A DNA stretch of 45,450 bases from Solirubrobacter deserti (GTDB lineage Bacteria; Actinomycetota; Thermoleophilia; Solirubrobacterales; Solirubrobacteraceae). Made by a program: the position numbers and the translations under genes. The notes under the pieces are model-generated. The model saw only the letters and a list, made by a program, of their open reading frames with translations, was not told where the DNA came from and made no database searches. Positions 14,915 to 16,131 of this stretch are shown here, one piece after another; position 1 is the stretch's first letter; every line of letters begins with the position of its first letter. The DNA lies in NCBI RefSeq assembly GCF_027587175.1, contig NZ_JAPCID010000056.1, forward strand, positions 1 through 45,450, read 5' to 3'.

Positions 14915-14941
14915 GACACCGCCCGCCTCCCCCGTGTGACA
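14915..14941 (-). promoter_or_regulatory. Predicted ECF41-type promoter (TGTCACA-N16-TGTC)
   Basis: Read on the minus strand, TGTCACA (14941-14935) is followed by a 16-base spacer and TGTC (14918-14915), eight bases before the CMD ATG at 14906. Published ECF41 target promoters have TGTCACA at -35 and CGTC at -10, so the match is one base from consensus. It supports autoregulation of the CMD-sigma operon. Confidence 0.75.
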
Positions 14942-14944
14942 GAA

Positions 14945-16093
14945 CTACTTGAGCGCGTCCACCTGCGCCTGGCTGGTGAGCACCGTGCCCGCGGGGACCC
15001 TCAGCCCGTCACGGAGCGTGAGGCCGGTCGCCGGCCCGGCGATGATCGCGCCATGCTCGATCGTGACGTCGTTGCCGACGGTCGCGCGGAACAGGATCGC
15101 GTCGTCGGCGATCGTCAGGCGGTCGCCGACCCTCAGCGGCCCGTGGAAGACGACGTTGTCGTCGGTGTCGAGGTTGGCGCCGATGCTCACGCTCGTGCCC
15201 TTGAGCGCGTGGAACGTGACGCGGTCCTCGATCTCCGCGTTCGCGCCGACGCTGATCGGCGAGCCCTCGTCGGCGCGGATCGACGTGCGCCGCCCGACCT
15301 TCGCGTTCGCACCGAGCCGGACGTCGCCCTCGATCCGCGCGCTCGGCTGGATGACGGCGCCGGCGCCGATCGTCGGGCGCTTGCCGGGGTTGAAGCTCGT
15401 CCTGGGCGAGCGGCTGATCCCGGTCACGGCCGTGTAGCCACTCTTCTCGTACAGGTGCGCGTACTCCTCGGCGAACTCGCGGTTGACCTCGAGCACGTCG
15501 CGCTGGAAGTCCGCGTCGCCCTCGGTCTTCTTGGGCAGCGCGTCCGCCTGCGCCTGCGTGGTGACCACCTGGCCGACGCCGACGAACCGGTCCTTCGGAA
15601 CCTTGACGCCGTCGACGATCGCGCCGTGGCCGACGAACACGCCGTCGGCCAGCGTGGCGTTGACGATCCGGGCGCGGAAGCCGATGAACGTGAACTTGCC
15701 GATCCGGCTGTTGACCACCTCGGCCTGGTGCGCGAGGCTCGTGCGCGCGCCGGTGGCGGCGGTGCGCGCGCCGGGCTCGCCGGTGAGCGCGAGCACGGAC
15801 ACGTTGTCCTGCACGTTGGTGCGGTCCCCGAGCTGCACGTGGTGTCCCGGGTCGGCCCGGAGCGTCGTGTTGGCCGTGACGAACACGCCCTTGCCGACGC
15901 GGACGTCGCCGAAGCGCTCGGTCAGCGGGCTGATGAACGACCCGTTGACGACGACCGGCGCGGAGCTGCTCACTGGCTCGCCGGCGGTGGCTGCGACGGC
16001 CACCCCGGTACCCGCCGCGAGCACCCCCGCCGCGACTGCGAGCGCAATGCGGCGAGGTTGATGAGGTACTTCAGACCCTAGCGATGAACGCAT
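14945..16093 (-). CDS. Secreted tandem gamma-carbonic-anhydrase-like protein
   Basis: This 382-residue protein has an N-terminal signal (PRRIALAVAAGVLAAGTGVAVAA) and two complete left-handed beta-helix domains (about 45-200 and 235-382), each ending in the Cam-like VPxGxxxxSQAxxDAL segment. Against the archaeal enzyme Cam, domain 1 keeps the His117 equivalent (H122 in SLAHQ) but has Leu101 and Val127 where His81 and His122 belong. Domain 2 keeps the His81 and His122 equivalents (H295 in FHALK, H317 in VVFHG) but has Asp312 in place of His117. The Cam Arg-x-Asp pair is present in both (R79/D81, R273/D275). I prefer ATG 16093 (AAGGG upstream) over ATG 16117. It could be an active extracytoplasmic carbonic anhydrase or a structural homologue. 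Confidence 0.85.
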   Translation of the reverse strand: MRSSLGSEVPHQPRRIALAVAAGVLAAGTGVAVAATAGEPVSSSAPVVVNGSFISPLTERFGDVRVGKGVFVTANTTLRADPGHHVQLGDRTNVQDNVSVLALTGEPGARTAATGARTSLAHQAEVVNSRIGKFTFIGFRARIVNATLADGVFVGHGAIVDGVKVPKDRFVGVGQVVTTQAQADALPKKTEGDADFQRDVLEVNREFAEEYAHLYEKSGYTAVTGISRSPRTSFNPGKRPTIGAGAVIQPSARIEGDVRLGANAKVGRRTSIRADEGSPISVGANAEIEDRVTFHALKGTSVSIGANLDTDDNVVFHGPLRVGDRLTIADDAILFRATVGNDVTIEHGAIIAGPATGLTLRDGLRVPAGTVLTSQAQVDALK

Positions 16094-16131
16094 GGCGCGC
16101 ACCCTTGCACACGCCATGGCTCTCGCCGCGC

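Follow-up and report, generated by a model that had tools for sequence, protein, structure and literature searches.

The stretch of DNA analysed here, referred to as the window, comprises 45,450 nucleotides of contig NZ_JAPCID010000056.1 from Solirubrobacter deserti and carries on its minus strand, at positions 14945 to 16093, a gene for a tandem gamma-class carbonic anhydrase (gamma-CA)-like protein that on translation is 382 amino acids long plus a stop codon. These coordinates match those of an earlier note made from the sequence, which had named no strand. There is an alternative in-frame ATG at 16117, 24 bases upstream of the start at 16093, and a long open frame also on the plus strand opposite the gene that is taken as the antisense shadow of a GC-rich gene. 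The host genome is 7.09 Mb, and in its near relative Solirubrobacter sp. CPCC 204708 the protein is 100% identical over its whole length. The chain begins with a signal-peptide-like stretch (residues 1-36, 15986-16093) recognised by eye from RR, a hydrophobic stretch and AVA/ATA, so that the protein looks to be of a secreted type, and several relatives likewise have lipobox-like or signal-like N-termini by eye. Two hexapeptide beta-helix domains follow, whose limits we took from alignments to Cam, the gamma-CA of Methanosarcina thermophila. Domain 1 (15524-15961) is without the N-terminal arm of Cam and is followed by a Cam-type C-terminal helix (15446-15517) that contains N204, the equivalent of Cam Asn202. 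A join of approximately 12 residues (15425-15460) leads from residue 211, the Cam-equivalent end of domain 1, to residue 224 at the start of domain 2 (14948-15424), which has a Cam-like N-terminal arm at its start and no Cam-type C-terminal helix at its end.

Assignment to the gamma-CA superfamily (Cam/CamH fold) is given by a hexapeptide-repeat beta-helix with significant similarity to gamma-CAs. The NCBIfam carbonic anhydrase model NF040597 (E 1.9e-52; 178.3 bits, below its equivalog cut-off of 380) and the CcmM model NF053794 (E 9.6e-50; 169.6 bits, below its cut-off of 550 for the beta-carboxysome scaffold) both have their best stretch in domain 1, CarbAnhydGPos (E 1.8e-18) has its best stretch in domain 2, and Pfam Hexapep matches with an E value of 3.6e-16. 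Additionally, a PDB sequence search aligned the sequences of the Cam crystal structures to both halves, with the N-terminal half of Cam aligning best to domain 2 and the C-terminal half to domain 1. The proposal of the earlier note that two Cam-like beta-helix domains lie in one chain is thus borne out, since both halves match gamma-CAs in Pfam, NCBIfam and PDB sequences. In a phylogenetic tree both domains of the window family group with Cam-like proteins (support of 100/98.9 when long branches are left out and 84/89 with all rows). Despite the match to the N-terminal domain of CcmM, the window protein differs from it in that a second beta-helix domain takes the place of further CcmM modules, and in its secreted-type N-terminus.

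Gamma-CAs are trimers of like subunits with a zinc site between neighbours. In Cam numbering the ligands are His81 and His122 on one side of the interface and His117 on the other, and we call these the A-side and the B-side, respectively. Alignment to Cam and to single-domain gamma-CAs places the three ligand positions in each domain of the window protein. Domain 1 retains only the His117 equivalent (H122, codon 15728-15730), with leucine at position 81 (L101, 15791-15793) and valine at position 122 (V127, 15713-15715). Domain 2 retains the equivalents of His81 (H295, 15209-15211) and His122 (H317, 15143-15145) and has aspartate at position 117 (D312, 15158-15160). This distribution had been described in the earlier note, and it is correct codon by codon. 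The three histidines of a gamma-CA are thus present across the two domains and within neither alone, and the sequence argues against a homotrimer with three equal sites.

To define the family, genomes were searched with the window protein, with its own genome counted and some of the matches being single-domain proteins. Matches at E <= 1e-30 occur in 4 of 232 genomes of the order, and at E <= 1e-20 in 4 of 399 genomes of the class and 11 of 396 of the phylum. Two further families gave matches in 6 of 39 genomes and 1 of 16 genomes. Two scans of viral contigs found no relative. Among 10 plasmid records listed of 595 matching, one full-length relative was retrieved, from plasmid 3 of Deinococcus deserti VCD115 (L060, WP_012694801.1). 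This protein belongs to another phylum, is 56-58% identical, has the same ligand split and is encoded approximately 3 kb from recA; its presence on a plasmid of another phylum suggests horizontal transfer. It is annotated as 'carbonate dehydratase', and its record table is silent on a split site. In the phylum to which the Chloroflexi locus L021 belongs, 400 genomes were searched with a profile, and 10 of them gave matches at E <= 1e-35, comprising eight full-length tandem proteins (L102-L109) and two single-domain proteins (L110, L111). With the copies of the window protein (L003, L006) and those of S. taibaiensis (L004, identical to L007) each counted once, the family consists of 19 two-domain proteins, namely 11 close members including the window protein (group W) and the eight distant ones (group X). 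The latter were retrieved after constancy of the ligands had been predicted. Two members of W (L052, L053) are frameshifted in their assemblies, and their pieces were interpreted separately by eye.

The ligand pattern is kept throughout this family. Domain 1 has histidine at position 117 in 19 of 19 members and never at 81 or 122, and domain 2 has histidine at both 81 and 122 in all 17 of the full-length members aligned, as well as in both frameshifted copies by eye. The abandoned positions of domain 1 drift among L, T, R, D, Y and I at 81 and among V, R, K and L at 122. Position 117 of domain 2 is Asp in seven, Glu in one and Phe in one of the nine W proteins scored, with Asp and Asn in the two fragments, while in the eight X proteins it is Lys (4), His (2), Glu (1) or Asn (1). 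By these counts the three positions that would supply ligands to a domain 2/domain 1 site are invariant, and the remaining three vary. Co-conservation among homologues had been put forward in the earlier note as a check, and the three histidines do not vary independently but are invariant in 19 members. Since the split is kept in relatives at about 28-82% identity, it is more than chance. In domain 1 of L102-L107 the 117/122 region is followed by an inserted loop rich in Cys-Pro and His/Asp, perhaps an extra metal-binding loop.

Residues of the second shell are divided in the same manner. Of the catalytic residues beyond the ligands named in PMC4519908, those that would accompany His117 are found in domain 1 of W (Asn73 in 10/11, Gln75 in 10/11 and Asp76 in 11/11), while domain 2 has neither Asn73 (0/9) nor Gln75 (0/9) and retains Arg59, Asp61 and Glu62 in 9/9. 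In X the same residues occur in the expected domain in 8/8 and domain 1 is also without Arg59. Additionally, N204 in the C-terminal helix of domain 1, a helix that belongs to the B-side of the interface, occupies an invariant column of a nine-row alignment.

The division extends to interface positions that hold no ligand. Table 2 of PMC8000050 lists the interface residues on each side of gamma-CA trimers, and 13 positions of the A-face (81/122 side) and 8 of the B-face (117 side) were selected by hand from its Thermus list. A stricter list took from the same source all beta-helix positions that lie on one side only in the Thermus protein. The three ligand positions were removed before testing, and similarity was scored relative to 13 single-domain proteins (10 CamH-like, 3 Cam-like). 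Both lists are based on CamH-type proteins (homology models and one crystal structure), with alignment used to carry the positions over, and the permutations are over positions rather than independent events, with the sequences within each family being related. In W, the first list gave a domain 2 minus domain 1 similarity of +1.27 at the A-face (10/11 positions positive) and -1.27 at the B-face (6/7 negative), with a permutation p of 0.0074 and a p of 0.0067 for within-family conservation. The p values are 0.008 and 0.017 without L052-L054, and were 0.011 and 0.0055 before two gap-adjacent positions were re-anchored. With the stricter list 9/13 and 7/9 positions agree (p 0.012 and 0.007). In X the differences are +2.73 and -1.76 (11/11 and 5/7; p 0.0002) with the first list, and the p values are 0.0002 and 0.011 with the stricter one. 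Adding two loop positions and position 134 to the stricter list changes little. These tests support the view that the "81/122" face has been retained in domain 2 and the "117" face in domain 1.

Charge gives a second view of the faces. The abandoned B-face of the 81/122-type domain has a charged fraction of 0.48-0.61 in W and 0.39-0.44 in X, compared to 0.00-0.11 at the same positions in the 13 single-domain proteins. For the abandoned A-face of W, an early contrast of 0.33 versus 0.11 was lost when the two gap-adjacent positions were re-anchored, and charge was dropped as a marker of that face.

The division of labour is not unique to the window family. A second family, R (L008-L015 without L010 and L012, and L069-L082), consists of tandem gamma-CAs with the opposite domain order. 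L008, L009, L011 and L013-L015 are in bins labelled Alphaproteobacteria, Rhodospirillales and Vicinamibacteria, and in one order 14 of 28 genomes match at E <= 1e-40. Among 15 non-identical R proteins, domain 1 has His81 and His122 in 15/15, with Arg (12), His (2) or Glu (1) at position 117, and domain 2 has His117 in 15/15 and never histidine at 81 or 122. The two proteins with histidine also at 117 of domain 1 are L009 and L011. The second shell follows, with Arg59 (15/15) and Asp61 (14/15, one unread) in domain 1 and Asn73, Gln75 and Asp76 (15/15) in domain 2. Gln75 is absent from the 81/122-type domain in 32 of 32 proteins scored in W, X and R. The face test gives p values of 0.0006 and 0.0002 with the first list and 0.002 and 0.0006 with the stricter list. 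A random choice of 18 non-face positions reaches the R difference in 0 of 20,000 draws and the W difference in 137 of 20,000. The abandoned B-face of the R 81/122-type domain is charged (0.29-0.40), as is the abandoned A-face of its 117-type domain (0.21-0.26 versus 0.00-0.04 in the partner domain). No signal sequence was seen by eye in the R proteins, and their linker between domains is by eye longer than in the window chain. Mis-binning or transfer is suggested by L009 and L011, which are nearly identical but come from bins with different labels (Alphaproteobacteria and Vicinamibacteria).

A third tandem group, T, occurs in Chloroflexi (L021, L041, L083-L088) and exhibits graded loss of ligands. 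Six proteins were examined, drawn from 19 genome matches plus L021 and L041, with 13 places (L089-L101) that cover about one query domain left out. Domain 2 is complete in five of the six and domain 1 in one. L087 has all six ligands, position 117 of domain 1 is lost in five of six, and L085 is also without His81 in domain 2. We considered T as a third full case of the split and rejected this, since complementary loss in both halves occurs only in L085 of the six, and T is instead intermediate. Over all tandem families 38 of 40 proteins were fully scored and 38 of these 38 hold a complete triad across the two domains; the remaining two are frameshifted and agree by eye. These 40 proteins were gathered by similarity to tandem queries and are not a census.

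The tree places the W family with Cam-like single-domain proteins and the R family with CamH-like ones. The W domains and the Cam-like singles form one side of a branch with support of 100/98.9 when L054 and domain 1 of L021 are left out as long branches, and of 84/89 with all rows. By the approximately unbiased test (p-AU), uniting the 117-type domains of W and R is weakly rejected (p-AU 0.027) and uniting their 81/122-type domains is not (p-AU 0.238). Uniting both W domains (p-AU 0.23) or both R domains (p-AU 0.167) is not rejected either. An independent origin of the two tandem families is likely.

We consider it probable that the window gene encodes a secreted-type fused gamma-CA in which one canonical interface and one zinc lie between domains 2 and 1. 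Domain 2 would stand for the subunit that gives His81 and His122, and domain 1 for the neighbour that gives His117. H295 and H317 of domain 2 together with H122 of domain 1 would hold one zinc at their interface, with a second shell shared between R273, D275 and E276 of domain 2 and N93, Q95, D96 and N204 of domain 1. Of the three interfaces of the ancestral trimer, two would have been given up, and the activity would be that of a secreted carbonic anhydrase that hydrates CO2. The faces would meet most simply within one chain. PMC8000050 reports that the N-terminus of the A-side chain contacts the C-terminus of the B-side chain, and a join of about 12 residues between ends arranged as B then A fits an intramolecular interface. 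In the opposite order of R those ends would lie further apart, which would account for the longer linker there. A canonical homotrimer is not expected, since a ring of three cannot be closed by two domains and the face given up by domain 2 carries charged residues. The view of the earlier note that duplication was followed by division of labour rather than decay is supported by the constancy of the histidines and by the independent test of non-ligand interface positions. It can be refined in that the division, as judged from the alignments, covers the interface face, the C-terminal helix and the second-shell residues beyond the histidines, and is found in the oppositely ordered R family too.

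There are several points that weigh against one interface with one zinc per chain. A chain with two domains leaves one of the three positions of a ring empty. The p values for W are moderate, with 18-25 positions behind them. The first face list was hand-chosen; it includes position 24, which is assigned to both sides in one interface, and omits some positions confined to one side. The domain 1 loop insertion in L102-L109 misplaces a few X positions. Charge marks the abandoned A-face clearly only in R, which weakens this reading and that of a single remaining interface. In W the abandoned A-face has a charged fraction of 0.18-0.27 versus 0.18-0.23 in the retained A-face of domain 2, and in X 0.12-0.17 versus 0.09-0.22 in the partner. 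Cam Glu84 corresponds to Lys298 in the window protein, and domain 2 of W keeps the Asp76 equivalent in 7/9 members, where it would be superfluous. Domain 2 of L102 and L106 keeps all three histidines (2 of 19), so that a homotrimer of domain 2 is possible in these two. Finally, AlphaFold2 models of the window chain, computed with alignments of the window and related loci, are poor (pLDDT, the predicted local distance difference test, 61.6 with a predicted template modelling score, pTM, of 0.43; and 58.5 with 0.41); both contain the C-terminal helix of domain 1. A Foldseek search with the first model gave no match at E <= 0.001, and the 50 matches listed of 155 include no gamma-CA; this model was discarded for that reason. 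The listed matches are other proteins with beta-helix, solenoid or similar folds, of which we take the beta-helix proteins to be right-handed.

Other arrangements of the same residues have to be weighed against this one. Because a two-domain chain leaves two faces unpaired, contact between the complementary faces may be made only from one chain to another, in an assembly with an even number of chains, or the third position may be taken by another gamma-CA. The A-face charge of domain 1, no higher than that of the retained face in domain 2, would fit this arrangement, as would one more gamma-CA-like match in the genome, on contig 88. However, that homologue is without a signal sequence by eye, while the window protein looks secreted, and the abandoned B-face of domain 2 is charged, such that we regard this arrangement as unlikely. 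There is still less to recommend a homotrimer formed by domain 2 alone, with domain 1 as a spacer and with Asp312 of the next chain completing a site of two histidines and one carboxylate. At the position of Asp312 an acidic residue (Asp or Glu) is found in 9 of the 11 proteins of the close family, including the window protein, but L054 has Phe there, the L053 fragment has Asn and the L102-L109 proteins have Lys (4), His (2), Asn (1) or Glu (1), while H122 of domain 1 never varies. The B-face that such a trimer would require is moreover charged and without Gln75, and the C-terminal helix is missing. We consider it equally improbable that metal binding was lost altogether and that the ligand pattern is the relic of a scaffold-like beta-helix. 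Each half is indeed degenerate by itself, and a Thermus gamma-CA without detected activity exists, though with its three histidines (PMC8000050). But the three histidines and the equivalents of N73, Q75, R59, D61, E62 and N202 are among the constant or nearly constant residues, and decay would not keep ligands in complementary halves in 19 of 19 proteins, nor repeat this in reverse order in 15 of 15.

A broader proposal, put forward only tentatively and at slightly less than even chance, is that fusion freed the enzyme from the obligatory trimer. Single-interface, single-zinc chains would then have arisen at least twice independently in bacteria, in opposite order, from Cam-like and CamH-like proteins, with the whole interface split left and right. 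Such chains may in effect correspond to a trimer from which one third is missing, with that side left open.

Downstream of the tandem gene are genes for a protein weakly related to YciW (49.1 bits versus a cut-off of 310) and for a SigJ-type sigma factor with a SnoaL-like end, and open frames of similar size and place are found downstream in S. taibaiensis. The Deinococcus locus has other neighbours than the window locus, and for this reason gene context is silent on function. Directly after the stop codon of the gamma-CA gene and ahead of these two genes is the motif TGTCACA-N16-TGTC (14915-14941, minus strand), which occurs with the same spacing in S. taibaiensis (L007:5152-5178). We take it to resemble promoters of ECF41-type (extracytoplasmic function) sigma factors. 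A stricter pattern ending in CGTC has no match in the window.

Relative to known systems, the window protein shares with Cam (PDB 1thj, 1qrg) the beta-helix, the N-terminal arm (here in domain 2) and the C-terminal helix (here in domain 1), as well as His81/His122 and His117 across an interface and the second-shell residues described in PMC4519908, which also places zinc between neighbouring subunits of gamma-CAs. Unlike Cam, which is a one-domain homotrimer with three equal sites, it has two unlike domains and one ligand set per chain. The same ligand split as in domains 1 and 2 is reported for complex I of Acanthamoeba (PMC2900272), where AcCa1 keeps only His117 and AcCa2 keeps His81 and His122, and where the authors suggest that the two may bind zinc in concert. 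These are two separate mitochondrial proteins, whereas the bacterial domains are fused in one chain. In AcCa2, Asn73 and Gln75 are replaced by Ser and Gly, which the authors take as a sign of inactivity. This loss is close to that in the 81/122-type domains of W, X and R, where the 117-type domain supplies Gln75. Because Gln75 is absent from all 32 of these domains, the loss in AcCa2 need not mean inactivity. The plant complex I gammaCA/gammaCAL heterotrimer also has unequal subunits and a single active site per trimer (PMC7567890). It differs in being built from separate chains, in that gammaCAL is without two of the three histidines, and in having its site between two gammaCAs. By titles, no description of a fused, complementary gamma-CA was found in the literature searched. 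Within that literature the ligand split is thus already in print for separate chains and the fused single-chain version is new.

If this reading is correct, the tandem proteins would represent a natural experiment in subfunctionalisation that shows which residues belong to which side of the gamma-CA site. They would also provide an asymmetric protein in which each side of the site can be mutated separately. They may further offer a simple way to model the degenerate gamma-CA heteromers found in mitochondrial complex I, the activity of which is unsettled.
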